The notes below the pieces were generated by a model. It saw nothing but the letters and a program-made list of their open reading frames with translations, was not told the DNA's origin and made no database searches. The position numbers were made by a program, and so were the translations under genes. A stretch of 64,000 bases of DNA, taken from Tahibacter soli. Lineage in GTDB: Bacteria > Pseudomonadota > Gammaproteobacteria > Xanthomonadales > Rhodanobacteraceae. Position 1 is the first letter of the stretch. Every line of letters starts with the position of its first letter. The stretch covers positions 806,001-870,000 of the forward strand of contig NZ_JAOVZO020000003.1 of assembly GCF_025717065.2 (NCBI RefSeq), given 5' to 3'. This document shows, piece by piece, positions 2,508-39,087 of the stretch.

Positions 2508-3074
2508 ATGAACCATGACGACATCACCGGAATGCTCAAGGCGTGGTCCGCCGGCGATGCCGCCGCGCGCGACGCGGTGTTCGAACGCATGTACGCGCAG
2601 TTGAAGCGCCTCGCGGTCGGCGCGCTGCGCGCGCAGGCGGGGCAGGCGACGTTCGAGCCGACCGTGCTGCTCAACGACGCGCTGCTCAAGCTCGTCGGCA
2701 GCGAGGCGCCGCGGGCGCACGATCGCGGCCATTTCGCCGGCATCGTCGCGCGCGCGATGCGGCAGGTGCTCGTCGACCGCAGCCGCCGCCGCCTCGCCGA
2801 CAAGCGCGGCGCCGGCCAGCGCCCGCTGTCGCTCGACGAGGCGCACGACCTGCCGGCCGCGACGCCCGAGTCGGTGCTCGGCTTCGACCGCGTGCTCGAC
2901 GAATTCGCCGACCTCGATCCGCAGGCCGCCGAAGTCGTGCACCTGCGCGTGTTCGCGGGCCTGACGATCGACGAAACCGCGCAGGCGCTCGGCCTGCACC
3001 CCTCGTCGGTCAATCGCGAATGGGCGCATGCGCGCGCGTGGCTCAAGGAGCGTCTCGACCATGGCGGCGGATGA
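2508..3074 (+). CDS. ECF sigma factor, kinase-linked type (module A)
   Basis: This 188-residue sigma-70 factor belongs to the ECF type linked to Ser/Thr kinases (Sigma70_ECF/TIGR02999-like, comparable to ECF43). Region 2 runs from about residue 5 to 95 and includes FAGIVARAMRQVLVDRSRRR. Region 4 (about 130-185) has the helix-turn-helix TIDETAQALGLHPSSVNREW. At the place where ordinary ECF factors carry the acidic DAED of region 2.2, this one has EPTV (residues 50-53), with Thr52 at the third position. It overlaps the downstream kinase gene by 14 bases, implying coupled translation. No anti-sigma gene is present. The inferred role is transcription of target genes once modified by the adjacent kinase; the targets may be the delta-60 genes just upstream. 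Confidence 0.88.
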   Translation: MNHDDITGMLKAWSAGDAAARDAVFERMYAQLKRLAVGALRAQAGQATFEPTVLLNDALLKLVGSEAPRAHDRGHFAGIVARAMRQVLVDRSRRRLADKRGAGQRPLSLDEAHDLPAATPESVLGFDRVLDEFADLDPQAAEVVHLRVFAGLTIDETAQALGLHPSSVNREWAHARAWLKERLDHGGG

Positions 3075-5472
3075 CGCGGCGCGCGCCGCGTACCGCGCGC
3101 AAAAAGAGGCGCTGCAGGCACTGCTCGCGCTGACCGGCGAGGAACGCGCCGCCGCGCTCGCGGCGCTCGCGGCGCGCGACGCGGCGCTCGCGCGCATCGT
3201 CGAGGCGCGGCTCGCCGCGGCCGGCGAACCCGAGCCTGCGAACGATCGCGAACGCGAAGCGGCGCCGCCGTCGATCGCGCGCTACCGCGTGCACGGAGAG
3301 ATCGGCCGCGGCGGCATGGGCCGCGTCTGGCTCGCGCAGCGCGCCGACGACGCCGACGCGCAGAAGCTCGCGATCAAGCAGGTGCGCGCCGACCTGTCGG
3401 ATGCCGAAACGCAGCGGCGCTTCGAGGCCGAGCGGCGCATCCTGTCGCGCCTGGATCATCCGCACATCGTGCCGCTCGTCGATGCGGGCCGCGACGCCGA
3501 CGGACGGCCGTTTCTCGTCACGCCGTACGTCGAAGGCACGACGATCGACGCGTACGCCGATGCGCACGCGCTCGACGTGCGCGCACGCGTCGCGCTCGTG
3601 CGCGACGTCGTGGCGGCGCTCGCGCACGCACACGAACATCTCATCGTGCATCGCGATCTGAAACCGGCCAACGTGCTCGTCGACACGACGGGCCGCGTGC
3701 GCCTGCTCGACTTCGGCATCGCCAAGATGCTCGACGCCGCGACCGAGCCGACCGCGGCCGGGCATTCGCTGATGACGCTGCGCTACGCGGCGCCCGAGCA
3801 GATCGCGGGCGACCGGCTCGGCGTCGGCTGCGACCTGTACGCGGCCGGCGTGCTGCTGTACGAACTCCTCGCCGGCCATTCGCCTTATGCGCAGCATCGC
3901 GAGCCGGCCGCGCTGATCCACGCGATCGCGAACACGCCGGCGCCGCCGCTGCCGCGGCGCGACCGGCGCGGCGAACGCCTGCCGCGCGATCTTGCCGCGA
4001 TCGTCGAAAAACTCCTGCGCAAGCGGCCCGAGGAACGCTACCGCTCGGCCGAATCGCTCGCCGACGAACTCGATCGCTGGCTCGCGGGGCAACCGGTACA
4101 GGCGCTCGCGGGCGAGCGCGGCTACCGCGCGCAGCGCTGGCTGCGGCGGCGCTGGCCGTGGGTCGCCGCGGCGGCGATTCTGCTCGGCCTCGGCATTTTC
4201 CACACGGTGCGGCTCGACCGGCAGCTCGCCGTGACGCAGCGCGAGCGCGACAAGGCGAACGCGATCGCCGAGTTCTTCTATTCGCTGTTCAAGGATGCCG
4301 CGCCGAAGGCCGCGCGCGACGGCGAGATCACCGCGCGCGCGCTGCTCGATGTCGGCGACGCGCGTCTCGACGCATTGGAACGCGAATCGAAATCGCCGCA
4401 GGCCGTTGCCGCGCTGATGGTCGAAGTGGCGCGCGCGCGCAACCATCTCGGGCAGCCGGCGCGGACGGTCGACCTCGGCGAGCGCGCCGCGGCGATCCTG
4501 CGCCGCGAGGACGCGCCGGTCGCGCTCGCCGACGCGCTGCGCGCCGCGGCGGTGGGCCACTACAAGCTGGACCACAAGCGCGAATACCTCGAACGCTCGC
4601 GCGAGGCGCTGGCCGTGCTCGAAGGCGCCGGCGCCACCGACGACAAGTTGTACGCCGGGCTGCTCGGCAACGTCGGGCTCGCGCACTTCATGCTCGGCGA
4701 GTACGACGCCGCCTGGCGCTATGCCGACCGCACGGTCGCGCTCGCGGGCGAGAAGCTGCCGGAGGGCCGTTCGGCGTACGTCAACGCGCTGGCGAACGCC
4801 GGCGGCATGGCGATGGTGGCCGGCGATCAGGCGCGCGCGTATCGCCTGCTCGAAGTGGCCGAGCGAGAGGCGCGCCTGATCGAGCCGCGCGCGCCCGACC
4901 AGGAGCTGTTCGTCGCGCGCAATCTCGCGGCGGTCGCGCGCGAATCGGGAAAGCTCGACGAGGCGCGCGAGCGCTACGACACGCTGGTCGCCGGTTCGCG
5001 TGCGTTTCACGGCGAAGGCCACGCGGATCTCATCAGCGCGCTGATGGGCCGCGGCGAGACGGCGCTCGCGCAGGCGCGCCACGACGATGCCGCGCGCGAT
5101 CTCGACGACGCGCGCGCGCAAGGCGCGCGCGCGTACCCGGCCGGGCACGGGCAGCTGCTCGACATCGACGGGCTGCGCGCGTTCGTGCTGCTCGAACGCG
5201 GCGACCTCGCGGCGGCGCGCGCGCTGCTCGAGGCGAATGCGACGGCGCGCGCGGGCGAGGCGATCGTCGAGGCGCAGCCGCGGCTCGAAGCGGTGGCGCT
5301 GGCGCGCACGCGGTGCGCAAGTGCGTCGAACGAGGAGATGAAGGCGGCGTTCGCCGGACTGGAGGCGGCGAAGAATATTTCGGCGTGGCAGAAGGCGATG
5401 GCGCAGCGGTGGCGCGATGCCTGCGTCCCGAACCCTCTCCCCCGAGCTCGCCTTGGGGAGAGGGCAGGGTGA
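3061..5472 (+). CDS. Membrane Ser/Thr protein kinase with TPR-like C-terminal region (module A)
   Basis: This is an 803-residue Hanks-type kinase. The start ATG at 3061 follows AAGGAG by 10 bases. The kinase domain spans about residues 75-350: glycine loop GEIGRGGMG, Lys106 in AIKQV, catalytic Asp199 in HRDLKPAN, Asp217 in DFGIAK, and the APE motif in RYAAPEQ. A single hydrophobic segment at about 365-383 (WPWVAAAAILLGLGIFH) would place the remaining 420 residues, rich in TPR-like helix pairs, in the periplasm. The sequence carries no PASTA repeats. The likely partner is the overlapping ECF sigma factor. The last residues, NPLPRARLGERAG, are encoded by a REP-like palindrome (5433-5477), so the ancestral C-terminus was probably near DACVP. 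A long antisense frame is a GC-bias shadow. Confidence 0.9.
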   Translation: MAADDAARAAYRAQKEALQALLALTGEERAAALAALAARDAALARIVEARLAAAGEPEPANDREREAAPPSIARYRVHGEIGRGGMGRVWLAQRADDADAQKLAIKQVRADLSDAETQRRFEAERRILSRLDHPHIVPLVDAGRDADGRPFLVTPYVEGTTIDAYADAHALDVRARVALVRDVVAALAHAHEHLIVHRDLKPANVLVDTTGRVRLLDFGIAKMLDAATEPTAAGHSLMTLRYAAPEQIAGDRLGVGCDLYAAGVLLYELLAGHSPYAQHREPAALIHAIANTPAPPLPRRDRRGERLPRDLAAIVEKLLRKRPEERYRSAESLADELDRWLAGQPVQALAGERGYRAQRWLRRRWPWVAAAAILLGLGIFHTVRLDRQLAVTQRERDKANAIAEFFYSLFKDAAPKAARDGEITARALLDVGDARLDALERESKSPQAVAALMVEVARARNHLGQPARTVDLGERAAAILRREDAPVALADALRAAAVGHYKLDHKREYLERSREALAVLEGAGATDDKLYAGLLGNVGLAHFMLGEYDAAWRYADRTVALAGEKLPEGRSAYVNALANAGGMAMVAGDQARAYRLLEVAEREARLIEPRAPDQELFVARNLAAVARESGKLDEARERYDTLVAGSRAFHGEGHADLISALMGRGETALAQARHDDAARDLDDARAQGARAYPAGHGQLLDIDGLRAFVLLERGDLAAARALLEANATARAGEAIVEAQPRLEAVALARTRCASASNEEMKAAFAGLEAAKNISAWQKAMAQRWRDACVPNPLPRARLGERAG

Positions 5473-5477: not shown

Positions 5478-5557
5478 CGACGCCTCCGACCGTGATGCGT
5501 TCCGATTGTCGCGCGGGCGTCTTGCGATAAACGAATCACGCGGGAAACCGACGCGTC

Positions 5558-5603: not shown

Positions 5604-5624
5604 AGTCCGTCGTCGAACGTCGCG

Positions 5625-6922: not shown

Positions 6923-8086
6923 ATGCGCAAGTACTGCCTCGTATTGCTGATCGCCGCCTTCGGCGTCGCGCATGCCGCGCCGCGCACCGTGCCGCCCGAA
7001 GTGCTCGCGACGATCGTCGACGACGTGCCGTATCCGCTGCCGCGCGGCCTGTCGGCCGACGAGGTGCGCGGGTTCGTGCTGCCCGACGCGCTCGCGACGC
7101 CGTTCGCGCCGCCCGCGGGCGCGGTCCGCGCGCAGGCCGAGTACGAGGACAACAGCGGCATCCTCGTGCGCTGGGGCTCGTTCAACGCGCTGCTGACGCA
7201 GATGACCGTGGCGATCACGACCGGCGATCCCGACGCCCGCGTCTACGTCGTCGTCACCGGCACGACGCAGCAGGCGAGCGCGACATCGACGCTCGCCGGC
7301 GCCGGCGCCGACATGACGCGCGTCGCGTTCATCACGCAAAACTGCACCGGTTCGACGTGCAGTACGTGGATGCGCGACTACGGTCCTCGCTTCATCGACG
7401 ACGCCGGCCGCCGCGCCGCGGTCGACCACGTCTACAACCGTCCGGGGCGCACGGCCGACGATGCGTTTCCGGGCGTCTGGCGCACCTACTCGGGCGAGCC
7501 GAAGTACGACATCCCGCTCGTGCACGGCGGTGGCAATTTCCACTTGTTTCGCAATCGCGACGCGTTCATGACGCGTCTCATCGTCAACGAAAATCCGAGC
7601 CTGAGCGAGCAGCAGATCAAGGACTACTACCTCGCGTACCAGGGCCTCGACGTCACGCTCGTCGATCCGTTTCCGACGAGCTACGACTCGACCCAGCACA
7701 TCGACATGTGGATGCTGCCGCTCGCCGACGGCAAGGTGCTCGTGAGCAGGCATGCCTCGACCGACGGCGTGCCGTACACCGTTACCGAAAGCACCGCGAC
7801 GCTGCTCGCCGGCCGCGGCTACGACGTCGTACGCACGCCGGCGTGGCGCGCCGGCGGCGCGCACTACACGTACGCGAACGCGGTGCTGCTCAACAAGGTC
7901 GCGCTCGTGTGCCAGTTCAACGGATACGCGACGCAGAACGCGGAAGCGCTCGCGACGTTCACCGCCGCGCTGCCCGAGCGCAGCGTGGTCGGCGTCGACT
8001 GCTCGGACATCATCGGCCTCGCCGGCGCGATCCACTGCATCGTGATGCACGTGCCCGACCTTCTGTTCCGGTCGGGCAACGACTGA
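6923..8086 (+). CDS. Secreted agmatine/peptidylarginine deiminase family protein
   Basis: This 387-residue protein has a signal peptide ([19 protein letters not shown]) and a bacterial peptidylarginine/agmatine deiminase (PPAD-type) domain. Diagnostic motifs are WMRDYGP, HGGGNF, the catalytic-His region TQHIDMWM, and the nucleophile region GAIHCIVMH with its Cys near the C-terminus. Family members hydrolyse a guanidino group to a ureido group plus ammonia. Export suggests an extracellular or periplasmic arginine substrate rather than the cytoplasmic agmatine pathway, but the substrate cannot be read from sequence. The C-terminus DLLFRSGND resembles a degenerate FxDGFE tail. A TATGCT -10-like sequence lies at 6888-6893. 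Confidence 0.85.
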
Positions 8087-8090
8087 CGCG

Positions 8091-8816
8091 TCAGCAGCCC
8101 TGCGGCGGCTGCGAGCCGCTGCACAGCTCCACCGGCAGCACGATGTCCTCCTGCGACGTGCGGAAGATCACGTCGTCGTCGACGAACACCGGTGTTTCGA
8201 GATAGCCGACGACGGCGATCGCGGGGTTCAGGCGCCAGCGGATCTTCTGGTCGCCGTTCTGCACGACGCTCGACTTGAGCGGCACGAAGATCTCCATCCA
8301 CGAGCCTTGCCGCATCGCCCATCCGCCGCCGCCGGCACCGCCGCGCGGCGCGCGTACGGCGAGGCCTTCCAGGCCCTGGGGCAGCGTCTGCGGGCAGCCG
8401 TACGTCGCCTCGTTCGCGTAGTTGAACAGCACGTTGTTCGGCGTGATGCCGAAGCAGAACACCGGATCGGTCGTCGAGATCGCGGTCTGGATGCCGGGCG
8501 GCAGGATCAGCTCGAGGCCGACGACGCTGCCGCCGCACGGATTGCCGGGGTGGCTCACCAGCACGTGCGTGTAGAACACTTCGCCGACGCCCGGCGGATT
8601 GCTCGGCGGCAGGTACGAAAAGCCCGCGTAGCCGGACGTGCGCACCTGGAAGATCGGCGGATCGGAAATGCACGCGGTGTTGGTGCCGACGTTGACGAGG
8701 CCGCCGTTGAACCAGCGCACGACGACGTTGGGGGTCACCGCCGAATCGGCGGCGGGTATCGAGGAATCGACGCTCGCGCCGGTCGCGAGCAGGGCGGCGA
8801 ACAACAGGGTTTGCAT
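8091..8816 (-). CDS. Exported protein of unknown function, tandem paralogue 1 (module B)
   Basis: This 241-residue protein starts at ATG 8816, placed by CGGAG 8 bases upstream and by the signal peptide MQTLLFAALLATGASV. An earlier ATG at 8837 would hide the signal. It shares ordered blocks with the gene at 8986-9717: WFNG, NxGTN-ACxxDPPI, GYAGFSYLPP, GEVFYTH, SHPGNPC, LELILPPG-QTA, DPVFCF, YGCPQT, QGLEGL, FRTSxE and a terminal QGC. Conserved cysteines suggest disulphides outside the cytoplasm. No known domain was recognised. It lies downstream of the module B sigma/kinase genes and is co-directional with them. Confidence 0.8.
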   Translation of the reverse strand: MQTLLFAALLATGASVDSSIPAADSAVTPNVVVRWFNGGLVNVGTNTACISDPPIFQVRTSGYAGFSYLPPSNPPGVGEVFYTHVLVSHPGNPCGGSVVGLELILPPGIQTAISTTDPVFCFGITPNNVLFNYANEATYGCPQTLPQGLEGLAVRAPRGGAGGGGWAMRQGSWMEIFVPLKSSVVQNGDQKIRWRLNPAIAVVGYLETPVFVDDDVIFRTSQEDIVLPVELCSGSQPPQGC

Positions 8817-8902
8817 GAGGCGCTCCGCAGGTTTCATCTGCGCGCCAAGGACGTAAAGCGGCGACGCAAACCCTCGCGGGGCGGCGCGATGCGCAACGAG
8901 CG

Positions 8903-8985: not shown

Positions 8986-9717
8986 TCAACAGCCCTGCGC
9001 GATCGGCGTGACCGTGCAGATATCGAGCGTCAGCAGGTTGTTTTCGTTCGACGTGCGAAACAGCACGTCGCCGTTGACCTGCGGGCCGACCGACGCGTAC
9101 GCGACGACGCCGACGTCCGGATTGATGCGCCAGCGGATCTGGCCGGTGCCGTTCTGCGGCGAGGTCGCGCGCAGCGGTACGAGAAACTCCTGGAAGAAGC
9201 CGCGCGCCGCGCCCCAGAGGCCGGCGCCGATGCCGCCGCGCGGTGCCGCGAAGCGCAAGCCTTCGAGGCCCTGCGAGAACGTCTGCGGGCAGCCGTAGTC
9301 GATGTCGGTGCCGAGGTCGATCAGGCGCGGGCCGTTCGGCAGACGCGCGAAGCAGAACACCGGGTCGGCCGCCGACACGGCGGTCTGCACGCCCGGCGGC
9401 AGGATCAGCTCGAGGCTGATCGCGCTGCCGACGCACGGATTGCCGGGGTGGCTCATGACGAGATGCGTGTAGAACACCTCGCCGACGGCCGGCGTCAGGT
9501 TCGGCGGCAGGTACGAGAAGCCGGCGTAGCCCTGCACGCGGATCTCGACGATCGGCGGATCGGTCAGGCACGCGATGTTCGTGCCGGCGTTCGTGATCGC
9601 GCCGTTGAACCACGGCAGCACGAGGTCGGGCGAGACGGGCGAGTCTACGGTGGGGACGACCGCCGCCGAGGCGGACGTGGCGGCGAACACGGCGAGAGCG
9701 AGCATCAGGTGTTTCAT
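8986..9717 (-). CDS. Exported protein of unknown function, tandem paralogue 2 (module B)
   Basis: This 243-residue protein has the signal peptide MKHLMLALAVFAATSASAA. The ATG at 9717 is preceded by GGGGAAAA; earlier in-frame starts lie in the spacer to the kinase gene. It is paralogous to the gene at 8091-8816 over its whole length, with the same order of WFNGAI, NAGTN, GYAGFSYLPP, GEVFYTH, SHPGNPC, ELILPPGVQTA, DPVFCF, YGCPQT, QGLEGL and terminal QGC blocks. It starts 70 bases after the end of the module B kinase gene on the same strand, so cotranscription is possible. Function is unknown. Likely periplasmic or extracellular, with disulphides. Confidence 0.82.
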   Translation of the reverse strand: MKHLMLALAVFAATSASAAVVPTVDSPVSPDLVLPWFNGAITNAGTNIACLTDPPIVEIRVQGYAGFSYLPPNLTPAVGEVFYTHLVMSHPGNPCVGSAISLELILPPGVQTAVSAADPVFCFARLPNGPRLIDLGTDIDYGCPQTFSQGLEGLRFAAPRGGIGAGLWGAARGFFQEFLVPLRATSPQNGTGQIRWRINPDVGVVAYASVGPQVNGDVLFRTSNENNLLTLDICTVTPIAQGC

Positions 9718-9787
9718 GGTTTTCCCCGCGGCCTTCATGGCCTCGTGCTTCCTTACGCAGAAGCGCGGCGAAAACCCGAAGCGTCGT

Positions 9788-12139
9788 TCAATCGCAGATC
9801 GCGGCGCTCTCCTGGAACCCGCGTTTGTCGCCGGGGCCGACACGCGGGTCGGCGACGAGTTCGGACAACGCCTTGCGCATCAACGCTGCGCCCTCGTCGC
9901 GCTGCCCGTGCGCGCACAGCGCGCGCGCGAGCGCGTGACGCGCGGCGGCCTGCGCGCGCGCGGTGGGCTCCTTGTCGGCGTCGCGCAGCGCGACGGCCTC
10001 GCGCAACAGCGCGATACCGCGTTTCGCGTCGCCATGCGCGGCTTCGCGTTCACCGGCCGTCTGTACGGTCAGCGGACACGACGTGCGGTCGCCGCCGAAG
10101 CTCGCGTCGCAGCGTGCGAGCGCCGAATCGAGCAAGGGCTTGGCCTTCGCGGGTTCGCCCAGGCGCAGCCAGGCGCGCGCGAGCGACGTTTCGGTGTTCG
10201 TCAGGCGCCGGTCGTTCGCGGCGAGCAGGCCGCGCTGTCCGTCGAGCACGGCGACGTACGCGTCGCGCGCGGCGTCGGGGTGTCCGCGCATCAGTTGCAG
10301 CGACGCCGCGTACGCGCCGACCGACAGCGTCGTCGGATGCCGCTCGCCGTTGAGCGCCGCGAACGCCGCGCGCGCCTGCCCGGCCGTCTGCTGCGCCTCG
10401 TCCCAGCGGCCCTGCGCTTCGCGCACGTGCGCGAGGTTGTCGAGCGCGTAGGCGCGGTGTTCGGTTTCGCGCGCGCCGGTGCGCGGCAGCAGCGCGAGCA
10501 CGCGTTCGAGCGCGGCGGCGGCCTCGTCGGTGCGGTCGAGCCATTTGAGCGCCATCGCGCGCGTGTTTTCGAGATCGACGCGCAGGTCGGGATCGTCGTC
10601 GGCGATCGCGTCGAGTTCGGCGATGGCGCGGTCGCTCGCGGCGAGCGACGCGGTGCGGTCGCCGCGCCGCGCGCGGATGCTCGCGAGCAGCGACAGGCGT
10701 TCCGCGCGCAGCCGCACCGTCGCGCGGTCGGTGCCGGTCGTCGCGTCGAGCGAGGCCTGCATCAAGGGTTCGGCACGCTCGTACTCGGCGAGGCCGCGCA
10801 TCGCGTCGGCGAGCGTCGCGAGCATGGCGGCGCGGAGGTCGGGCTGGTCTTTCAGTTCGGTATCCACGCGTGCCGCGCCGCGTTCGAGCAGCGCGCGCGC
10901 GTCGAGCTGTTCGCCGCGGTTGACGTTCGGGTCGGCGAGCCGGAACAGCGATACGAGAAACCCGTTGATCGCGTCGGCGCGCGCGTTTTCGCGCCGCGCG
11001 TCGGCGAGCGCCTGGGCGGCTGCGGTCTCGGCCGCGAGCGCGCGCCGGCGCTCGGCGTCGAGCTGCCAGACGAACGCCGCAGCGAGCGCGAGCGCGAGCA
11101 TGGCGAGCGAGGCGGCGATGCGGTGGCGTTGTATAAATTTGCTCAAGCGATAGCGCCGCGTGTCCGCGGCCGCGCGCACCGGCCGGCCTTCGCGATAGCG
11201 CGCGAGATCGTCGGCGAACGCCTCGGCGCTCGCGTAGCGCGCGGTCGGATCGGTCGCGGTGGCCTTCGCGACGATGCCGCGCAGCTCGGCGTCGAGCGGC
11301 GGCGCGTCGCCGGCCAGCAGCACCTCGTGCAGCAGCACACCGGCGCTGTACAGGTCGCTCGCGGTCGTGATCGGACGGCCGGCCTGCTGTTCGGGGCTCG
11401 CGTAGGCCGGCGTCATCACGCGCGTCGACGTCTCGCGCGCGTCGCCGGTTTCGATCAGCTTGGCGATGCCGAAATCGAGCAGCTTCGGCGTGCAGTCGTC
11501 GCGCACGAGAATGTTCGCGGGCTTCAGATCGCGATGCACCACGAGCCGCTGGTGCGCGTGCTGGATCGCCTCGAGCAGACGTTCGGCGAACGCGAGGCGC
11601 GCCGCGCGACTCGGCGCGCGCGCCTTGATCCAGGCCGCGAGCGGCAGGCCGTCGACGTGTTCGAGCACGAGATACGGCTGGCCGTGCGTCGTCTCGCCGC
11701 CGTCGATCAGGCGCGCGATGCCGGGATGGTCGAGCGTCGCTAGAATCTGCCGCTCGCGGCGCAGGCGGCGCATACCGTCGGCGGTCGGAAAGCCGCGCAA
11801 GAGCTTGATCGCGACGTGCTGCGTATACGCGCCGTCGGCGCGCTCGGCGAGAAACACGGTGCCCATGCCGCCGCTGCCCAGTTCGCGCAGCAGGCGGTAC
11901 GGGCCGAGCGCCTCGATCTCGCGTTCGGGTTCGACGAGCCGGTGCATCGCGGCGTCGACCGCACCGGCGACGGGATCGTGGCGCGTCGCGTCGGCGTCGA
12001 CGAGCCGTTCGACGAGCACGCGAAAATCGCGGCCGGATTCGTTTTCGTAGCGGTCGAGCAGGGCGGCGCGCGCGGCGGGATCGGCGTCGGCGAGCGCCGC
12101 GAACGCGTCGGCGACGCGATCGGGGTCGTGTCGGTTCAT
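9788..12139 (-). CDS. Membrane Ser/Thr protein kinase with TPR-like C-terminal region (module B)
   Basis: This 783-residue Hanks-type kinase has glycine loop ELGSGGMG (87-94), Lys112 in HVAIKLL, catalytic Asp204 in HRDLKPAN, Asp222 in DFGIAK and the APE equivalent in YASPEQQ. A hydrophobic segment at about 341-358 separates the kinase from roughly 420 residues of TPR-like helical repeats, predicted periplasmic. The C-lobe is unusually short: only about 12 residues (LLAGDAPPLDAE) connect helix F to the LRGIVAKAT helix, where the other two kinases here have 35 or more, so the helix G substrate-docking region is reduced. The gene begins 10 bases after the sigma factor stop, which implies an operon and a shared function. 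Confidence 0.9.
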   Translation of the reverse strand: MNRHDPDRVADAFAALADADPAARAALLDRYENESGRDFRVLVERLVDADATRHDPVAGAVDAAMHRLVEPEREIEALGPYRLLRELGSGGMGTVFLAERADGAYTQHVAIKLLRGFPTADGMRRLRRERQILATLDHPGIARLIDGGETTHGQPYLVLEHVDGLPLAAWIKARAPSRAARLAFAERLLEAIQHAHQRLVVHRDLKPANILVRDDCTPKLLDFGIAKLIETGDARETSTRVMTPAYASPEQQAGRPITTASDLYSAGVLLHEVLLAGDAPPLDAELRGIVAKATATDPTARYASAEAFADDLARYREGRPVRAAADTRRYRLSKFIQRHRIAASLAMLALALAAAFVWQLDAERRRALAAETAAAQALADARRENARADAINGFLVSLFRLADPNVNRGEQLDARALLERGAARVDTELKDQPDLRAAMLATLADAMRGLAEYERAEPLMQASLDATTGTDRATVRLRAERLSLLASIRARRGDRTASLAASDRAIAELDAIADDDPDLRVDLENTRAMALKWLDRTDEAAAALERVLALLPRTGARETEHRAYALDNLAHVREAQGRWDEAQQTAGQARAAFAALNGERHPTTLSVGAYAASLQLMRGHPDAARDAYVAVLDGQRGLLAANDRRLTNTETSLARAWLRLGEPAKAKPLLDSALARCDASFGGDRTSCPLTVQTAGEREAAHGDAKRGIALLREAVALRDADKEPTARAQAAARHALARALCAHGQRDEGAALMRKALSELVADPRVGPGDKRGFQESAAICD

Positions 12140-12149
12140 GCGGTTGGCG

Positions 12150-12716
12150 TCACGCGGTCAGCGCTTGCTTGAGCCAGGCGCGCGCCAGGCGCAGGTCGCG
12201 ATCGACGGTGCCTTCGGACACCGCGAGCGCCGCGGCGATTTCCTCGCGCGAGAAGCCGCCGAAGTAGGCGAGTTCGACGGTGCGCGCGCGGCGCTCGTCG
12301 CTGCGCGCGAGTTCGGACAGCGCGGCGTCGACGCGCAAGAGGTCGGCGTCGGAATCGTTCGCGGCGACGTGCGCGGCGGCTTCGATCGCGATGTGTTCGG
12401 CCGCGCCGCCGCGCTTGTCGGCATGGCGCCGGCGCGCGGCGTCGACGAGCACCTGGCGCGTGGCCTGCGCGACGACGTGAAAGAAATGCCGGCGGTCGTG
12501 CCAGTTGCCGTCGCCGCCGATGAGGCGCAACAGGGCTTCGTGTGCGATCTCGGTGGGCGTCAATGTCGCGCCCGGCGCGTGGCGCAGCGAACTGGCCGCG
12601 ATCGCGCGCACGTTGCTGTAGACGAGCGTGAGCAGCGCTTCGCGCGCGCCGCCGTCGCCGCCGCGCCATGCGTGCAGCAGTTGCGTGATGTCGTGGTTTT
12701 CCAGCGCCGCAGCCAT
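12150..12716 (-). CDS. ECF sigma factor, kinase-linked type (module B)
   Basis: This 188-residue ECF sigma factor is of the same kinase-linked class as the one at 2508. The start ATG at 12716 is chosen because GGGGGG lies about 5 bases upstream; the open frame extends further upstream but through Arg/Pro-rich shadow sequence and a CRP-type palindrome. Region 2 contains HFFHVVAQATRQVLVDAARRR, and the region 4 helix-turn-helix is FSREEIAAALAVSEGTVDRDL. In region 2.2 the DAED tetrad is replaced by TPTE (residues 53-56), with Thr55 at the same position as Thr52 in module A. The kinase follows after 10 bases. No anti-sigma factor is visible. Confidence 0.88.
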   Translation of the reverse strand: MAAALENHDITQLLHAWRGGDGGAREALLTLVYSNVRAIAASSLRHAPGATLTPTEIAHEALLRLIGGDGNWHDRRHFFHVVAQATRQVLVDAARRRHADKRGGAAEHIAIEAAAHVAANDSDADLLRVDAALSELARSDERRARTVELAYFGGFSREEIAAALAVSEGTVDRDLRLARAWLKQALTA

Positions 12717-13299: not shown

Positions 13300-14256
13300 C
13301 TAGGCGACTTTCAACTGCCTCGCAAACATCACGCCTTTGAGCCACCGCTGCTGCAGCTCCTCTGCCTTGTCGACCAGCGCCTCGACCAACCCGATCGCCC
13401 GCCGGTAGCGCGATTGCGTGCCTTGCACTTGCAACAGCCACGCGTTTTCTGACAGGCCTATCCGTCGAACGATCGACGGCAACGCGCGATCGATGACGCC
13501 GGGTTTGCTGGCATGAAGCAGGCGACCCGTTTCGTCGACGAGCGTGAGATATTCGCGTTCGCTGACGCCGAGCACCGAGCCCGGTCCGGCAATCGGTGCG
13601 AGCGGCTCAACCGCTTCGCGGCGCACTCTTGCCCGATCGACTCGCCGCCGGAACGACACGTGTTCGGCCGTTTCCGGCGCGGTCACGACCTTGGCGCGCA
13701 CGGGATTGAGGTCCACGTACGTCATTGCGCTGAGCACCGCCGCGTCGTCGAGCAGTGCCTGGCAACGGAACCGTCCCTCCCAGAAGCGTCCCTTGCAGCC
13801 GTCTTCCGCATTGGCGGTGCGCGCGATCGATTCGTTGAGAAACCGCATGAACCAGCTCAGGTTGCTCAGGCGCAGGCGGTACTCGGCAACCAGCGCGGTG
13901 TTGCCGGACGAGGCAAGTACGCGCTGCTCGATCGACGCGTCGTTATCGGCCTTGCGGCGCGATACCGAGAACCAACGGCGCAGGACGTCGAGATCGCTCC
14001 AGGCTTCGGTGAGCTCCGGTGCGGTTCTAACGACCAGATGAACGTGATTGCTCATCACCGCATACGCGTAGACGCCGATCGCAAACTGGGTTGCGAGTGC
14101 AGCGATACGGTCCTCTATCCGGCGCTTGCGGTGCGAGAAGTCGCGGCCGGTGACCGGATCACGGCCGCACAGCCAAGCCTGCCGAACGCATCGCGAAACG
14201 ACATGAAAGGTGCCGCTGGCACACGGATCGACGGTATGGAAGCGGGGGATGGTCAT
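13300..14256 (-). CDS. REP-associated tyrosine transposase (IS200-like Y1 family)
   Basis: The protein has the HUH motif in VMSNHVHLVVR and the block CKGRFWEGRFRCQ followed by MTYVDLNPVRA, whose Tyr is the expected nucleophile. These are hallmarks of REP-associated Y1 transposases, which nick single-stranded DNA at REP hairpins. The start given (MTIPRFHTVD, 318 residues) matches the usual N-terminus; ATGs at 14268 and 14313 would add 4 or 19 residues and none has a good ribosome site. At 318-337 residues it is about twice the E. coli RAYT length, with an extra C-terminal region of about 120 residues. No second IS gene or target-site duplication is seen. It is flanked by oppositely oriented GGACACC repeats. 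Confidence 0.85.
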   Translation of the reverse strand: MTIPRFHTVDPCASGTFHVVSRCVRQAWLCGRDPVTGRDFSHRKRRIEDRIAALATQFAIGVYAYAVMSNHVHLVVRTAPELTEAWSDLDVLRRWFSVSRRKADNDASIEQRVLASSGNTALVAEYRLRLSNLSWFMRFLNESIARTANAEDGCKGRFWEGRFRCQALLDDAAVLSAMTYVDLNPVRAKVVTAPETAEHVSFRRRVDRARVRREAVEPLAPIAGPGSVLGVSEREYLTLVDETGRLLHASKPGVIDRALPSIVRRIGLSENAWLLQVQGTQSRYRRAIGLVEALVDKAEELQQRWLKGVMFARQLKVA

Positions 14257-14353
14257 GACGGCAAGCATCGGCCTGCGAGGCGCCGATTGCTTCAGTCGTA
14301 CGCCGGGAAACATGTCGGAATTGGCTGATCGTTTCGTTGACGCTACGAAAGTC

Positions 14354-14626: not shown

Positions 14627-16054
14627 TCAAAGACACCCCGAAGTCTCCGCCACATCGCCGACGCATAGTTGCACTGCCGGTTCGTCGGCCGCGCGACGCA
14701 ATCCTTGCGAGATATCTTCCGCATACGCCGGCGCGCCGTCGTACGCCGCGCGCACATCGGTCGTCCAGCCGCGCGCCGTGAGTTCGCGCAGCGCAGTCAT
14801 CGACGCGTCGCCGCCGATCAGGAGCGTCTTGTCCTTCTCGCGCCACTGCGGCAGCTCGAAGAACGCGTCGATCGCGTCGGTCCAGCTCAGCCAGTCGACC
14901 GGCAGCGGCAGGTACAGCTGTCCGTCCGGCGCGCGCCACGCGATCGCCGCGCCCGCGACGACGAGCTTGCCGCCCGGCGCGCCGGCGTGGCGGCGGATCA
15001 GTTTCAGCGCGTTGACGAGAAAGCGCGCTTCGAGTTCGGTGCGCGTGCCGGCGCCGATCTCGACGAGGTCGTTGCAGCCGGCCGCGGGTTTGAGCGCATC
15101 GAGTTCGTCGGCGAGGCTCGTGCGCAGGCTGTCGTTGAAGCCGCCGCGGCGCAGGAACTGCCGCAGCGCGAAATCGTCGCTGCACCAGTTCGCGATGCGC
15201 ACGCGGTTTTTCTCGCGCAGGTTTTCCGGATCGAGCTGCCACACCATCGCGTTGAGCTGCCCGGTGGTTTCGATCACCGTTTCGGCCGTGCCGCCGATCG
15301 CGTCGAGCGCCATGCCGGCCGAGAAGTTGCCCCACACCGCGGCCCACGCGAGCGCGTCGAGCCGCGCGTTGACGTACGGGTTGCTCGTGTACGGATCGAT
15401 GCCGAGGTGGCGCGCCATTTCGCGGCGCATCTTGTTGTAGTCGAGCTGCCGGCGCACTTCGCGGCCCACTTCCTTGCCGACGCGCTCGTACCACGCCTTG
15501 CTCTCTTTCGGCGGCACGGGTTCGCCCGGCACCGGCTCGCGCGTCGCGCCGAGCGGCGCCTGCGGCGTTTTGAACGGGTCGCCATCGGCGCCGAACGTGC
15601 GCGCGGCGCGGTCGGACGCCGACTGCGCGCGGCTGCCCCAGCTGTCGAGCTTCTTGCCGAAGTAGCGCGCGACGCCTTCGGGCAGGCCGATCAGCGTGTC
15701 GACCGGATTCGTCACCACTTGCCACACCGCGTTGCCCGTTTTCTTCGCGCGCTCCGCGAGTGCGTGCGCGAACGCCTCGGATTTCGCCGCGCGTTCGAGC
15801 GCTTCGATCGCCGGCAGTTCGGCCGCGCGCACCGCGAGCATTTCGACGCTCGGCGCCGTCAGCGCGCCGAACGGCGTGGTCACCTCGAAGCGCGCCATGA
15901 AGCCGTGCACCTGCGCCTGCGGCGCGACCGAGTAGCCCGGGCCGGACAACAGCGACGGCTGCACGATCGCGGCGGCGTCGAGCACCGGTTCGGTTTCGCC
16001 CGCGGCGGCATGGCCTGCGAGCGCGGCGAGGAGGAGGGCGTAAAGCGGACGCAA
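14627..16054 (-). CDS. Exported protein of unknown function
   Basis: This 475-residue protein has a signal peptide (MRPLYALLLAALAGHAAAG). The middle part is helical and charged (LERAAKSEAFAHALAERAKK, EVGREVRRQLDYNKMRREMARHLGIDPYTSNPYVN), followed by GNFSAGMALDAIGG and an Ala-rich C-terminal domain ending ETSGCL. The YTSNPYVNARLD block and the cysteine pairs look conserved-family in style, but I do not recognise a domain or function. The start is well placed: a Met-Arg followed by a hydrophobic core, with no plausible upstream start. It is monocistronic as far as can be seen, with the tdh gene upstream separated by 343 non-coding bases. Confidence 0.78.
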   Translation of the reverse strand: MRPLYALLLAALAGHAAAGETEPVLDAAAIVQPSLLSGPGYSVAPQAQVHGFMARFEVTTPFGALTAPSVEMLAVRAAELPAIEALERAAKSEAFAHALAERAKKTGNAVWQVVTNPVDTLIGLPEGVARYFGKKLDSWGSRAQSASDRAARTFGADGDPFKTPQAPLGATREPVPGEPVPPKESKAWYERVGKEVGREVRRQLDYNKMRREMARHLGIDPYTSNPYVNARLDALAWAAVWGNFSAGMALDAIGGTAETVIETTGQLNAMVWQLDPENLREKNRVRIANWCSDDFALRQFLRRGGFNDSLRTSLADELDALKPAAGCNDLVEIGAGTRTELEARFLVNALKLIRRHAGAPGGKLVVAGAAIAWRAPDGQLYLPLPVDWLSWTDAIDAFFELPQWREKDKTLLIGGDASMTALRELTARGWTTDVRAAYDGAPAYAEDISQGLRRAADEPAVQLCVGDVAETSGCL

Positions 16055-34760: not shown

Positions 34761-35135
34761 TCAGATGCCGTCGCGGGCGAGCAAGGTCGTACCGGGGCCG
34801 GCGACCGCGTGTGCGGTGGCCTGCGCAGCGGCCGGGCAGCCGCGCAGCGTCTGCGTCGCGGTTTCGACGTAGCCGGCGGGCGCGACGACGGTAACGGCGA
34901 CGGCGCCGTAGCGGCCCGCCACGCAATCGATGCGACGGCTCGGATCGGCCGACGCGCCGCTCTCGGACACGCGCATATTGCCGACGGTGTTCCAGTAGTA
35001 GGTGTAGCGCTCGCCGCGCGGCCAGGCTTCGCAACGGTAGCCGTCGGCGGTTGCCGCGCAGTCGACGCCGGCAGCCGACGCGACGTTGGCGGCGGCGAAC
35101 AGGGCGACTATCGAAATCAGACGCGGGGAACGCAT
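34761..35135 (-). CDS. Small exported protein, tandem paralogue 2 (module C)
   Basis: This 124-residue protein has a signal peptide (MRSPRLISIVALFAAANVASAAG). The start at 35135 is preferred for the signal peptide; ATG at 35150 would add five residues and neither has a good ribosome site. The mature part is a single Ig/PKD-like beta domain: D-C-A-x-x-x-D-G-Y-x-C-E-A-W-P-x-G, YYWNTVG, SADPSRRIDCVAG, AVTVVAPAGY, TLRGCP. The gene at 35308-35814 carries the same series as its C-terminal domain, so the two are tandem paralogues. Function is unknown. Both lie downstream of the module C kinase on the same strand. Confidence 0.72.
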   Translation of the reverse strand: MRSPRLISIVALFAAANVASAAGVDCAATADGYRCEAWPRGERYTYYWNTVGNMRVSESGASADPSRRIDCVAGRYGAVAVTVVAPAGYVETATQTLRGCPAAAQATAHAVAGPGTTLLARDGI

Positions 35136-35189
35136 AGAAGAGACCGTCATCCGCCGAGGGCGCAGGCGGGGCCTGCGATCAAGGCCGGC

Positions 35190-35228
35190 AACGCAGCCGC
35201 CGTGTTCAGGGGGCGCGGCGGCTGCGTT
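35190..35228 (-). terminator. Hairpin between the module C exported-protein genes
   Basis: AACGCAGCCGCC pairs with GGCGGCTGCGTT (12 bp, 15-base loop). No T-tract follows on the minus strand, so it is a weak terminator or an RNA-stability element between the two paralogous genes. A second hairpin (GGGGACCG/CGGTCCCC) lies at 35275-35295. Confidence 0.35.
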
Positions 35229-35307
35229 ACGGCAGGGCGGTTGCCGCCCCATATTTACTACTCGCGGATCGAGGGGGGACCGGCTCACGGTCCCCTAAAA
35301 AAGTCGC

Positions 35308-35814
35308 TTATGGCGTGGTGGGACAGGTCACGCTCTCGGTCTGGCTCTTCGAGGCGCCGCTCGGACTGTAAGCGATGACAGTGATCGTGCCCTGCGTGCC
35401 CGGCGTGCAGCTGAAGCCGCGGACCGGGTTGGCGGAGCCGGAACCGCTGTCCGGCACAAAGCTGCCGCCGGAGGACCACGAGTACGTGATGCTGTCGCCT
35501 TGCGGCCAGGCTTCGCAATAGTGATGACCGTCTACGTTCGCGCAGTCCAGCGAAACGGGCCCTGGCGCGGAGGCGAGAGGTATCTTGAAGCCGATGTAGT
35601 CATTGGTGGTGTCTTCGCTGATCGGACAGCCTTCCGTGACTAGCACTTGTCCGCTGCCTGAGGCAGGTAAATCAGCGGCTTTCAGCCTTGACGTGTAGCA
35701 ACCGTTCGCGCATTTCACGAGTTCGCACAGTTCGGCGGCGACGGCGGAATTGCCTGCGGTCCAGCCGACGGCAGCTAACGCGAATGCTATGGATAGCGGA
35801 TGAAGCGTTCTCAT
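35308..35814 (-). CDS. Exported protein with Ig/PKD-like domain, tandem paralogue 1 (module C)
   Basis: This 168-residue protein starts at ATG 35814, with GAGGAA 6 bases upstream. The signal peptide is MRTLHPLSIAFALAAVGWTAGNSAVAA. An N-terminal cysteine-bearing part (CELVKCANGCYTS, TEGCPISEDTTNDY) precedes a C-terminal beta domain, LDCANVDGHHYCEAWPQGD, YSWSSGGSF, SCTPGTQGTITVIAYSPSG, VTCP, which is paralogous to the gene at 34761-35135. The base composition is lower in G+C than the average gene here (sampled 60-base lines give about 55-65%). It starts 137 bases after the module C kinase gene. Function is unknown. Confidence 0.78.
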   Translation of the reverse strand: MRTLHPLSIAFALAAVGWTAGNSAVAAELCELVKCANGCYTSRLKAADLPASGSGQVLVTEGCPISEDTTNDYIGFKIPLASAPGPVSLDCANVDGHHYCEAWPQGDSITYSWSSGGSFVPDSGSGSANPVRGFSCTPGTQGTITVIAYSPSGASKSQTESVTCPTTP

Positions 35815-35951
35815 GGTCAATTCCTCATGGTATTCGCGGTGATGACGGTTTCACCGGAGAGATCGGGGCCGGCCTCAATTCTTGGCTGCCAAATGAGGAC
35901 GTATTTCGGGATCATAAGACAGACGGATTTGCGAGGCTGAAAGGCTCAAGG

Positions 35952-38519
35952 CTATTGTAAATTCCCAGGCGAATGTGCAGCGGTCTGCGTTTGCTTCGTC
36001 AGCTCGAGAACGGCGGCGCAATCGGTTGGCGGGTCAACCGCGAGCTTGTCGTCGCAGCCACAGGCGTTCGCTGCTTCCTGCAATATTTTGGTGAAATCGT
36101 CGACGGTTCGCCCGCTCGCGAGCTTCAATTGCTCCGTACTCTCAGGACTGACGAGTTGCGCAAGCGCGGCTGGTGCCCGCCCGCGATCCAACAGGAACCG
36201 CGCAAAGCTGATGCGCCAGAACACGAGCGTCGAACGCAAAGTCTCGGCCTGCTTGCCGCCCCGAACGAGCACATCCCGGTACAGCCCTTCAATTTCTTCA
36301 TCGTGGCTGCCGAGTTCGACGAGCAGCTGTGCAAGATTGAACGCCAGGCGCAACGTATTCTGATGGTCGTCGCCCACGGACGCGCGCGATGCTTCAAGAG
36401 CGTGTCGAAATGATTCCGCCGCATCCTCTGCCTGCTTGTTTTCGTTTTGCGCATTCCCAAGTGCGGCGTATGCAATCGCCGTTACCGAATTGCGCGATCC
36501 AAATACGCGGAGCACTTGTTGCAACACCGCGGGCGCTTCCGCCAGCGCTTCGTTGTTGCGATCCGCACGCCGCAGTGCATCGATCCGGTAGATACGGGTC
36601 AGAGTCAAGCGAGGGTGGTCGGGTTTGAGCTGCTGTCGTTGCCAACGTAGTGTTTCGTCCAGCAAGGTAACCGCTTCGTTCTGGCGATTGACCCGGCCCA
36701 GGGCCTGGGCGAGCTGCAGGCGAGCGAGATTGGCCGTCTCATCGGTAGCAGGGCGCCCGTTTGTCTCATCCACGGCCTGTTGTAAGGGTGACACCGATTC
36801 GCGCGCCTGACTGGTGTGTTGCAACAGGTTTCCTTGCACAAGTTTCCACTCCGGGGTGGTCGCAAACCCGGCGTCCGCAGCTTGATGCAGTCTGGCTTTC
36901 GCGTTGTCGTAGTCGCCGGCGGCGATGAGTGCGCGCGCTTCGGTTATCAGGAGCGAGCCGATTTGCTTGTCGTCGAATCCTGCCGCGCGTGCCGCTAACG
37001 TCGCTCGTCGCGCAAGTTCGCTGGCTTGTTGACCGAGACCGACCGAAAGTTCGACTTCAGCCAACGTTTCGCCGAGTTCGGCGTAGACGTCGGGCTGAGT
37101 CTCGAAGGTAGCTTCAAGACTCGGCCGTGCGGCGTCCAGAACTTGTCTGGCGGTTACGTTGGCACCGTTGATCTGCATCGGATTGGCCGCCGCGAATGCG
37201 CTCTTAAGCAGCCCTACCGCACGCTGCGCCCGATCGCGCTCATGCGCGATGGCAATCGTCTGCCGCGCGATCGCCGTGATCGCCAGCAGGATCGTCACGA
37301 ACAGCGCCGCGACCAGCCCCGACGCCACCTTGTGCCGCGCCACGAACTTGCGCCACCGGTACCATCGGTCGCTCTGCCGTTCGCGGATCGGCCGGCCTTC
37401 GAGCACGTGCTCGACATCGCTGTCGAGCTGATCGATCGTGCCGTAGCGTTCGTCCGGCCGCTTGCGCAGGCAGCGCTGCACGATGTGTTCGAGGTCGCCG
37501 CGCAGCTCGGCGCGCAGGTCGCGTACGCTCGTCAGGCCGCGCTGTTTCGCCGCTTCGAGATCGGCGTCGGCGACGCGGCTCGCCATCGGCGGCGGCGCGA
37601 CGTGGCGGATCGCGTTTTCGATTTCGCCCGGCGTCATCGTGTCGAACGCGAACGGCTGGCGGCCGCAGAGCAGTTCGTACAGCAGCATGCCGATCGCGTG
37701 GATGTCGCAGGCGATCGTGATCGCGCCCGCTTCGAGCTGTTCCGGCGCCGCGCTGCGCGGCGTCAGAAACCGTTCGGCGGTCACGGTCGCATCGGTATTG
37801 CCGATGCGGCCCAGCGGCTTGGCGATGCCGAAGTCGAGCAGCCGCGTCTCGCCCTCGTCGGTGACGAGCACGTTCGATGATTTGATGTCGCGATGCACGA
37901 CGAGATTGCGGTGCGCGTGCGCGACCGCGGCGAGCACCTTGCGCACCAGTTTCAGGCGCGCCTCGATCGTCAGCTGGTGCGCGTTGCACCATTCGACGAT
38001 CGGCCGGCCGCGCACGAATTCCATGACGACGAACGGCGTGCCGTCGGTCGTCGTCGCGGCGTCGATCAGGCGCGAGATGCCGGGATGGTCGAGCGCGGCG
38101 AGAATCGCGCGCTCGGTCGAAAAGCGCTTGAGCAGCGCCGGGTGCACGAGGTCGCGGCGGACGAATTTGATCGCGACTTCCTGCGAGAAATCCGGGCCGA
38201 TGCGCGTCGCGCGGAACACGCGGCCCATGCCGCCTTCGCCGACTTCTTCCTCGAGCCGGTAGCTGCCGACGACGACGCCCGGCTTGAGCGCGTCCGGTTC
38301 GGTCGCGTCGAGGCTCACCTCGACGATGCCGACGGCCGACTGCGTCTTCGAACCGATCAGGCGCTGGTCGCGCAGGACCAGGCGCTCGAGTTCGGCGCCG
38401 ATCTCGGTGTCCTCGTCCATGCAGCGCTTGACGAATGCCTCGCGCGCGAGCGGATCGAGGTCGAGCGCCTCGTCGAACAAGGCGCCGAGCCGGCGGATGC
38501 GGTCAGGGTTCGTCTTCAT
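35952..38519 (-). CDS. Membrane Ser/Thr protein kinase with TPR-like C-terminal region (module C)
   Basis: This is an 855-residue Hanks-type kinase. The glycine loop is EVGEGGMG (92-99), Lys118 is in EVAIKFV, catalytic Asp211 in HRDIKSSN, Asp229 in DFGIAK, and the APE motif in RSAAPEQ. A membrane segment at about 398-417 is followed by about 435 residues of TPR-like repeats, predicted periplasmic, including several Ala-rich helix pairs and a late cysteine pair (ACGCDD). The DNA changes character at the membrane segment: lines in the kinase part are about 70% G+C, lines in the TPR part (35.95-37.2 kb) about 55-62%, so the sensor half may have been replaced by recombination. The start overlaps the sigma factor gene by 17 bases. 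Confidence 0.9.
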   Translation of the reverse strand: MKTNPDRIRRLGALFDEALDLDPLAREAFVKRCMDEDTEIGAELERLVLRDQRLIGSKTQSAVGIVEVSLDATEPDALKPGVVVGSYRLEEEVGEGGMGRVFRATRIGPDFSQEVAIKFVRRDLVHPALLKRFSTERAILAALDHPGISRLIDAATTTDGTPFVVMEFVRGRPIVEWCNAHQLTIEARLKLVRKVLAAVAHAHRNLVVHRDIKSSNVLVTDEGETRLLDFGIAKPLGRIGNTDATVTAERFLTPRSAAPEQLEAGAITIACDIHAIGMLLYELLCGRQPFAFDTMTPGEIENAIRHVAPPPMASRVADADLEAAKQRGLTSVRDLRAELRGDLEHIVQRCLRKRPDERYGTIDQLDSDVEHVLEGRPIRERQSDRWYRWRKFVARHKVASGLVAALFVTILLAITAIARQTIAIAHERDRAQRAVGLLKSAFAAANPMQINGANVTARQVLDAARPSLEATFETQPDVYAELGETLAEVELSVGLGQQASELARRATLAARAAGFDDKQIGSLLITEARALIAAGDYDNAKARLHQAADAGFATTPEWKLVQGNLLQHTSQARESVSPLQQAVDETNGRPATDETANLARLQLAQALGRVNRQNEAVTLLDETLRWQRQQLKPDHPRLTLTRIYRIDALRRADRNNEALAEAPAVLQQVLRVFGSRNSVTAIAYAALGNAQNENKQAEDAAESFRHALEASRASVGDDHQNTLRLAFNLAQLLVELGSHDEEIEGLYRDVLVRGGKQAETLRSTLVFWRISFARFLLDRGRAPAALAQLVSPESTEQLKLASGRTVDDFTKILQEAANACGCDDKLAVDPPTDCAAVLELTKQTQTAAHSPGNLQ

Positions 38520-39087
38520 CGCCGGGCACGATATCCAGTCGCTCGGCGAGCCATGCGCGCGCGAAACGCCACTGGCGTCCGACGGTCGCGCGCGACGAGC
38601 CGCAGACTTCGGCGATTTCTTCTTTCGTGAGGCCCGAGAACAGGCGCAGCTCGACCACGCGCGCGGCGTCGGGCTGCGCTTCGGCGAATTCGGTCAGCGC
38701 CTGATCGACGGCGAGCCAGTCGACCTGGTCGCCCTGGAACGGCGCGTCGCGCTGCTGCACTTCGTCGAGCGCGACGAACAACTGGCCGCCGCCGCGCTTT
38801 TCTGCCGTACGGTTGCGCAGGTAGTCGACGACGACGCGGCGCATCAGCGTGGCCGCGATCGCATGGAAGTGGCTGCGGTTCTGCCAGTCGACGCCCTGCT
38901 GCAGATGCAGGCGCTCGTACGCCTCGTTCGCAAGCTCCGTCGCGCGCAGCGTGAGCACGCCGCCGTGACGCCGGATCTGCGTACGCGCAAGTTCGCGCAA
39001 CACCGGATAGATGTCGGTCGCTAGCGCATCTTCGACACTGCGGTCGCCGCGCTTCCAGCGATCCAGCAGCTCGGTGATCGTGGACAT
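38503..39087 (-). CDS. ECF sigma factor, kinase-linked type (module C)
   Basis: This 194-residue ECF sigma factor is of the same class as those at 2508 and 12150. The start ATG at 39087 follows AGGGGAT by about 9 bases. Region 2 contains HFHAIAATLMRRVVVDYLRNRT; region 4 has TKEEIAEVCGSSRATVGRQW. The region 2.2 tetrad is RATE (residues 48-51), with Thr50 at the position shared by all three kinase-linked factors. It overlaps the kinase gene by 17 bases, indicating coupled expression. No anti-sigma gene is near. Upstream, about 145 bases separate it from the end of the beta-oxidation gene on the same strand. Confidence 0.88.
   Translation of the reverse strand: MSTITELLDRWKRGDRSVEDALATDIYPVLRELARTQIRRHGGVLTLRATELANEAYERLHLQQGVDWQNRSHFHAIAATLMRRVVVDYLRNRTAEKRGGGQLFVALDEVQQRDAPFQGDQVDWLAVDQALTEFAEAQPDAARVVELRLFSGLTKEEIAEVCGSSRATVGRQWRFARAWLAERLDIVPGDEDEP

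Follow-up and report, generated by a model that had tools for sequence, protein, structure and literature searches.

Two described pairs of an extracytoplasmic function (ECF) sigma factor and a transmembrane kinase are the closest described counterparts of the genes considered here. In Xanthomonas citri, the kinase PknS, whose periplasmic part contains three tetratricopeptide repeats (TPRs), phosphorylates the sigma factor EcfK, and in Vibrio parahaemolyticus EcfP is activated by PknT; type VI secretion (T6SS) and polymyxin resistance are the outputs named for these systems (according to excerpts of PMC13147305 and PMC8999054). A third point of comparison is sX13 of Xanthomonas, an RNA of ~115 nucleotides (nt) with stem-loops, located downstream of polA; its three loops are rich in C and act on G-rich targets close to translation starts (excerpts of PMC3771888). 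Here we analyze a window of 64,000 nt, positions 806,001–870,000 of contig NZ_JAOVZO020000003.1 in the 6.65-Mb genome of Tahibacter soli, which contains three modules, A (1–5472), B (8091–12716) and C (34761–39087), each combining a sigma factor, an adjacent kinase and two tandem exported paralogs. We consider it rather probable that these are ECF43-type switches, each tied to its own exported proteins, and that a structured RNA in module C represses or balances translation. The switch is known, and the module C RNA, judged from its sequence, matches no family catalogued in Rfam.

The sigma factors of modules A (2508..3074, plus strand), B (12150..12716, minus strand) and C (38503..39087, minus strand) score 171.9, 183.4 and 177.2 bits with TIGR02999 (cut-off 126.15), and all three genes coincide with PF07638 matches. 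The Hanks-type Ser/Thr kinase of module A (3061..5472, plus strand) and the kinases of modules B (9788..12139, minus strand) and C (35952..38519, minus strand) have a Pkinase domain and, past a membrane segment at residues 365–383, 341–359 and 399–417, respectively, a TPR_12 match; kinase C has an additional weaker hydrophobic stretch (residues 262–280) within the kinase domain. The sigma and kinase genes overlap in modules A and C and are 10 bases apart in module B. Similar to PknS, the kinase domain is N-terminal and is followed by one membrane segment and TPRs beyond the membrane. Similar to both described pairs, the sigma factors belong to the same family, have an adjacent transmembrane kinase and possess a Thr where sigma2.2 otherwise has its acidic contact (DAED), their motifs being EPTV in module A, TPTE in module B and RATE in module C. 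The modules are accordingly best described as probable members of the ECF43 type, an assignment made from the family models, the adjacent kinase and the sigma2.2 Thr rather than from published ECF group models. The kinase/sigma core is thus already known and is not a new signaling family. In contrast to EcfK/PknS and EcfP/PknT, there are 27 copies in one genome here, the neighbors are exported repeat proteins, and an RNA is embedded in module C.

These 27 copies are the PF07638 sigma genes of T. soli at E-values of at most 1e-15, among 33 matches at E-values of at most 1e-3. The loci compared comprised the 27 T. soli sigma genes, 79 sigma genes and one module B protein locus from four congeneric genomes (G002, G004, G005 and G007), and 40 control loci evenly spaced across the T. 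soli genome; six of the 33 T. soli matches (E-value >1e-20), one of 22 in G002 and seven of 28 in G004 were excluded. Two overlapping loci, L010 and L017, duplicate some genes, so that 109 of the 111 called sigma genes are distinct. A kinase gene lies within three genes of 95 of the 111, on the same strand and downstream in 82 of those. The Thr at the position of EcfK T51 is found in 88 of these 95 sigma factors and in 13 of the 16 without a kinase within three genes, and the idea that a phosphomimetic residue replaces it where the kinase is not adjacent was rejected on the latter count. One of the 16 sigma genes lacking such a kinase, the module B ortholog of G007 (L130:9695-10261), keeps the Thr and adjoins an exported protein; since the Thr is kept there, another kinase may serve it. 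Elsewhere, three kinase genes occur near a single sigma gene in L012 and two in L022, and a G005 sigma gene (L123, G005:C1:4706865-4707400) that matches PF07638 in two frames is probably broken.

The exported pair precedes the sigma gene in module A, whereas in modules B and C it is found downstream of the kinase. Module A encodes protein 1 (430 amino acids (aa); 1..1116, plus strand, beginning 177 bases ahead of the window) and protein 2 (1164..2462, plus strand), which are 49.8% identical over 406 aa. On the minus strand, module B encodes proteins 2 (8091..8816) and 1 (8986..9738), with 54% identity over 222 aa, and module C encodes C1 (34761..35135) and C2 (35308..35820, with an ATG at 35814), with 34.7% identity over 72 aa. 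Each module therefore has the composition given in the initial annotation, namely a sigma factor, an adjacent one-segment TPR kinase and tandem exported paralogs, and its proposal that the core is reused beside different exported neighbors is supported. That the exported families differ was likewise confirmed; the labels attached to them (delta-60, Cys-rich and Ig/PKD) are only partly backed by models. Module A protein 2 reaches 47.2 bits with TIGR02608 (cut-off 76.5) and 21.3 bits with PF17164 (cut-off 27), and because it stays under these curated cut-offs we call the module A proteins delta-60-like only; its G007 homolog passes PF17164 (39.9 bits) and is below the TIGR02608 cut-off (33.2 bits). 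The module B proteins have six Cys residues that are conserved or nearly so. Protein 1 had no match in the Pfam or NCBIfam scans, and a fold search with a low-confidence model of module B gave adhesin/pilin-like beta-sandwich matches (best E-value 9e-5). The module C proteins have in common the signature CEAWPxG, in the form CEAWP(Q/R)G with some variants, and have no sequence match in Pfam or PDB. The best Foldseek match of the modeled C2 protein is 6aem_A (PKD1; E-value 2.1e-3, TM-score by target 0.72, model pLDDT 73.9), and the module C proteins may be PKD/Ig-like, by fold only.

Module C is the best conserved of the three modules. It is complete, with sigma factor, kinase and both exported proteins, in six out of six genomes read (T. 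soli, G002, G004, G005, G007 and, as L165, T. caeni), and in all six it is located after an RlmB-like gene. Between T. soli and four relatives, the identity is 88–89% for the sigma factor, 70–75% for the kinase part, 48–53% for the TPR part, 38–43% for C1 and 32–38% for C2. A delta-60-like protein is encoded beside the orthologous sigma/kinase genes of module A in four out of five genomes, as a pair upstream in T. soli, a pair downstream in G007, one gene downstream in G004 and a single gene between sigma and kinase in G002. The module B protein is found near the sigma gene in three out of four genomes, including G002, where the sigma factor, the kinase, the B protein and other exported genes stand together. 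Among the orthologs of modules A and B, a single exported gene often takes the place of the pair. Particular exported families follow particular sigma/kinase orthologs, with the order of the genes partly shuffled. The B family also occurs near a kinase gene in another genus (G036), and several congeners have a second B-family site with no sigma gene seen in the ~3.7 kb read.

The gap between the C1 and C2 genes is more conserved than both genes, and it contains a structured RNA element (35187..35298, minus strand). Its alignment includes ten copies, six from module C and four from other loci (L166, L167, L169 and L171), all of which have GTGAGCC and, after 17 columns, CGAGTA, followed by two hairpins, one short and one long, the latter carrying the invariant loop CCCCCTGA (35206–35213 in the window). 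At the 23 pairs of this structure, the paired fraction of the alignment cells is 93%, compared with 74% after shuffling; 16 pairs are changed on both sides (9.6 in shuffles), and the covariation score is 0.565 (0.211 in shuffles). None of 500 shuffles reached the observed paired fraction, two-sided changes or covariation, four reached the number of further pair types, and slid structures were only 32–49% paired. An Rfam scan of the window at gathering scores returned tRNA only. Around the element, four sub-threshold matches were obtained at E-values of at most 5, none of them named sX13, and no match was found in five loci with RNA copies at E-values of at most 1; identity with a known Rfam family was rejected, as none exceeded its gathering score. 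One of the four, alpha-r7 (RF02342), is similar in its C-rich loops and three stems (excerpts of PMC3771888) and overlaps weakly (17 bits, E-value 1.1), whereas its gathering score of 60 bits is far above what the element reaches.

Run against 197 genomes of the family, the ten-copy model, for which the noise level is about 22 bits, produced 16 matches of at least 42 bits; all of them lie in the eight genomes of the genus, one of them in T. soli, and three matches of 23–27 bits were outside the genus. Above noise, RNA models hit module C only, both in 20 chosen sources and in the window together with the 40 control loci, and a loop-hairpin scan of the loci fetched by that stage also detected the RNA in module C only. 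The exact pattern has ten matches in 84,980 species genomes, eight of which belong to Tahibacter or to Lysobacterales metagenome-assembled genomes (MAGs), and the remaining two (a Phycisphaerales MAG and Nodosilinea) were taken for chance. Three copies outside module C, from T. caeni, SCN 69-320 and MAG-228, are preceded by a PUA/SAM-methyltransferase gene, and GTTTTG comes after their hairpin, as in a free RNA or 3' end; the copy in L171 lies elsewhere.

In six out of six genomes, the invariant CCCCCUGA loop is complementary to the sigma C Shine-Dalgarno region, where the site reads UCAGGGG (39095..39101 on the minus strand, ahead of the sigma C start in the window) or GCAGGGGG. Compared with 2162 upstream regions, the pairing in these genomes, which are related and not independent cases, ranks among the best 0.2–0.9% for sigma C, among the best 1.5% for the C2 start in five out of six genomes and among the best 3.4% for the C1 start in four out of six. 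None of 60 shuffled loops matched the starts equally well, and three of 105 other sigma entries reach the T. soli value and none the value of the relatives. Of the three starts in module C, only that of sigma C fits the loop in T. soli; sigma B was dropped as a further target, its G-rich site in T. soli not being conserved in three orthologs. Similar to sX13, as excerpts of PMC3771888 describe it, the element is ~115 nt long, has stem-loops and exposes a loop rich in C whose complement is found in G-rich sites close to translation starts. In contrast to sX13 as described there, it has a single conserved C-rich loop, CCCCCUGA, plus other invariant segments, and its genomic setting is either the interior of a sigma/kinase module or the region behind a methyltransferase gene, not the region downstream of polA. 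A fair reading by analogy is that the RNA would work like sX13, and we do not claim membership in sX13.

Many exported neighbors of the sigma genes end in IFx(D/N)GF(E/Q) or variants, for example module A protein 2 (1164–2462 in the window, ending in LIFRDGFQ) and the products of L006:4720-6768 and L025:7178-9664. A position matrix detected this tag in 97 of 2275 proteins, with 1.6 expected from shuffled tails. Tagged genes make up 21 of the 128 genes directly next to a sigma gene, 16 of 199, 14 of 193 and 8 of 188 at growing distance, 24 of 731 beyond four genes and 13 of 613 in the control loci, and 33 of the 109 sigma genes have one at most two genes away. The excess of near over far tagging is significant in G002, G004 and G005, and all five genomes exceed the T. 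soli control loci. The motif is a better mark of the sigma neighborhood than tandem pairing, giving the stronger signal. In 61 relatives from 44 genera, strict motif sites, counted as DNA sites and not as confirmed gene ends, rise in number with the PF07638 genes; the Spearman correlation is 0.81 for genomes, 0.80 for genus means, 0.79 with genome size removed, 0.56 in 26 genera of the same family and 0.73 over 18 other genera. At least five of both are present in 15 genera, of the sigma genes only in 3, of the motif only in 2 and of neither in 24. In 147 loci, 17 of 20 strict sites lie at most 35 codons from an in-frame stop.

The bodies of eight tagged proteins include two DUF5122 propellers, two beta-helices, FG-GAP, DUF7452, an extracellular endonuclease of the ExeM/NucH type that also has Calx-beta, and one protein with no Pfam match above its cut-off. 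Four of the eight score above the cut-off of an NCBIfam 'choice-of-anchor' Q or D model, and a fifth has a choice-of-anchor Q match below the cut-off immediately ahead of the tag. Such names are given by NCBI to domains that occur with various anchoring signals at the C-terminus, and because choice-of-anchor proteins elsewhere carry their signal at this position, the motif may be a C-terminal sorting or anchoring signal. The known sorting tags PEP-CTERM and GlyGly-CTERM are similar in being short conserved C-termini on unrelated exported proteins; in contrast to them, the motif tails listed have no membrane segment or basic tail. The tail was covered by no model in an NCBIfam scan of nine tagged proteins, and no description was found among the listed matches of title and abstract searches on the motif letters or C-terminal sorting; it may be in print elsewhere. 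The product of L087:6539-9526, an ExeM/NucH-type extracellular endonuclease, ends in DLIFRDGFQ and adjoins a sigma gene. A related NCBIfam model has GG in its name, which we take as a possible reference to a GlyGly-type tail, and the L087 tail may have been exchanged for the present motif.

From the observed gene arrangement, sigma2.2 Thr, linkage, RNA structure and complementarity we infer a chain of causal steps. An envelope or outside cue would reach the TPR part beyond the membrane, a topology modeled on EcfK/PknS and EcfP/PknT, and, as in those pairs, the membrane kinase would phosphorylate the Thr of sigma region 2.2, which occupies the place of an acidic RNA polymerase contact in other ECF sigma factors, and switch the sigma factor on. 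The active sigma factor would then transcribe the module genes. The exported, fast-evolving proteins are linked to the switch in the genomes and would most likely be its outputs or partners. In module C, the RNA loop would pair with the sigma ribosome-binding site and, in most relatives, with those of C1 and C2, most likely repressing or balancing their translation in the manner of sX13. Such an arrangement points to possible outputs for a large and little-studied expansion of phosphorylation-controlled sigma factors, RNA feedback inside one sigma/kinase module is a testable proposal, and over 44 genera these sigma factors are accompanied by the C-terminal motif found on many exported proteins. 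A wider reading, which we regard as possible and put forward tentatively, is that the expanded set of ECF43 switches in Lysobacterales constitutes a system for regulated surface display. Each switch would control its own exported repeat proteins, many with a hitherto undescribed tag at the C-terminus, IFx[DN]GF[EQ], which would serve for sorting or anchoring and replace known anchors behind choice-of-anchor domains; the tag machinery would come and go with the switches, and the C-loop RNA of module C would act as translational feedback. The choice-of-anchor domains of the tagged proteins give this reading more weight.

Several observations weigh against switches tied to their own exported proteins and against the translational role of the RNA. 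The G005 copy of module A lacks a delta-60 neighbor. In G007, sigma B adjoins the exported B protein with no kinase adjacent, and in G004 the module B sigma/kinase genes (L154, contig C7) are apart from the B protein (L144, contig C4). Near and far tagging do not differ significantly in T. soli (11/179 vs. 7/174) and G007 (12/125 vs. 10/152). The clustering of strict motif sites near sigma genes, assessed at three distances in three long-contig genomes (two of the lengths being approximate), has p < 0.05 in one of nine tests only, G039 at 10 kb (8 of 25 sites, 2.6 expected, p = 0.012); within 4 kb of sigma genes there are 2 of 38 sites in G005 (0.94 expected) and 2 of 64 in G011 (2.4 expected). 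The starts of C1 and C2 in T. soli and of C1 in G005 are unmatched to the RNA loop. Counts of 6–8-mers and bipartite words in 46 upstream regions of tagged genes revealed no convincing shared promoter motif, and sigma70-like boxes were among the top words in 107 sigma upstream regions. Exported genes as a whole show a modest excess near sigma genes (271/713, compared with 179/613 in control loci and 226/731 in the rest). Tandem pairs, defined as exported genes on the same strand with a BLASTP E-value <1e-3, number 18 per 708 genes at up to four genes from a sigma gene (19 with one duplicate of module B), 3 per 613 in control loci (p = 0.003) and 13 per 731 elsewhere in the fetched loci, including the one without a sigma gene (p = 0.37), with p-values that are optimistic since orthologs were counted as separate cases. 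The enrichment of pairs near sigma genes, proposed as a test at the outset, therefore holds against control loci and fails against the local background, and pairing was dropped as a defining feature.

The latter comparison would be expected if the sigma/kinase genes and the exported repeat genes merely gather in variable regions and the pairs are ordinary local duplications, as would the near-far tagging of T. soli and G007 and the weak clustering of strict motif sites. We nevertheless hold such a coincidence to be improbable, given the distance gradient of tagged genes across five genomes, the shared site of module C in T. soli, four congeners and T. caeni, and the delta-60-like family that stays with sigma A despite rearrangements. 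The initial annotation favored a closed loop in each module, in which the exported pair is under the control of the sigma factor and, itself or through its ligands, is bound by the TPR part. The faster divergence of the TPR part and exported proteins of module C relative to its sigma factor and kinase, and its conserved linkage, agree with this proposal. However, the contact between the TPR part and the exported proteins is a prediction only, and some orthologs of modules A and B keep the TPR kinase while the exported partner is absent or elsewhere. A shared ECF promoter before the exported neighbors was rejected after the word counts, and the divergent intergenic region between the sigma and delta-60 genes, compared in five genomes, shows conservation only in CTGTCA and in a block where the delta-60 gene starts. 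The claim that the sigma factor drives the exported genes found no support in this search, and a closed loop appears unlikely. Because the exported B protein of G007 stays beside sigma B without an adjacent kinase, we lean to outputs rather than ligands as the role of the exported proteins. As for the RNA, it could be a mere transcription terminator or attenuation hairpin whose loop has no regulatory function, as the GTTTTG of the three copies behind a methyltransferase gene would suggest. A terminator has no need of an invariant 8-base loop, GTGAGCC or CGAGTA, the module C copies have no U-run after the hairpin, and the loop fits the starts of its own module better than shuffled loops do; we see this as a lesser possibility than the translational role of the module C RNA.

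As regards the tandem pairs themselves, genes and signal peptides were called by simple custom predictors, and small exported genes missed in L157 and L113 were recovered from the reading frames. Six T. soli sigma genes have a pair within four genes, three of them in the window (modules A, B and C) and the others in L020, L025 and, weakly, L005; the pair in L025 consists of proteins of 829 and 828 aa, and that in L020 of proteins of 2382 and 518 aa with 69% identity over 386 aa. A stricter first-pass export rule, later superseded, had found pairs within three genes of 2 of 27 T. soli and 4 of 82 relative sigma genes, at 0 of 378 control anchors and at 10 of 84 distant anchors. On the minus strand of L157 (G004), a long simple repeat downstream of C1 reads as Cys or Val-Ala runs. 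In the window, module B is adjoined by an exported peptidyl-arginine-deiminase-like protein (6923..8086, plus strand) with a weak C-terminal motif, LLFRSGND (LVFRDGMD in the G007 homolog), and in G004 a deiminase-like gene is found on the same contig as the exported B protein (L144, G004:C4). Between sigma B and a gene for an exported protein of 475 aa (14627..16054, minus strand), there is a Y1_Tnp-like gene (13300..14313; 21.9 bits, cut-off 23), and the homolog of the 475-aa protein directly adjoins sigma B in G007 and G004.

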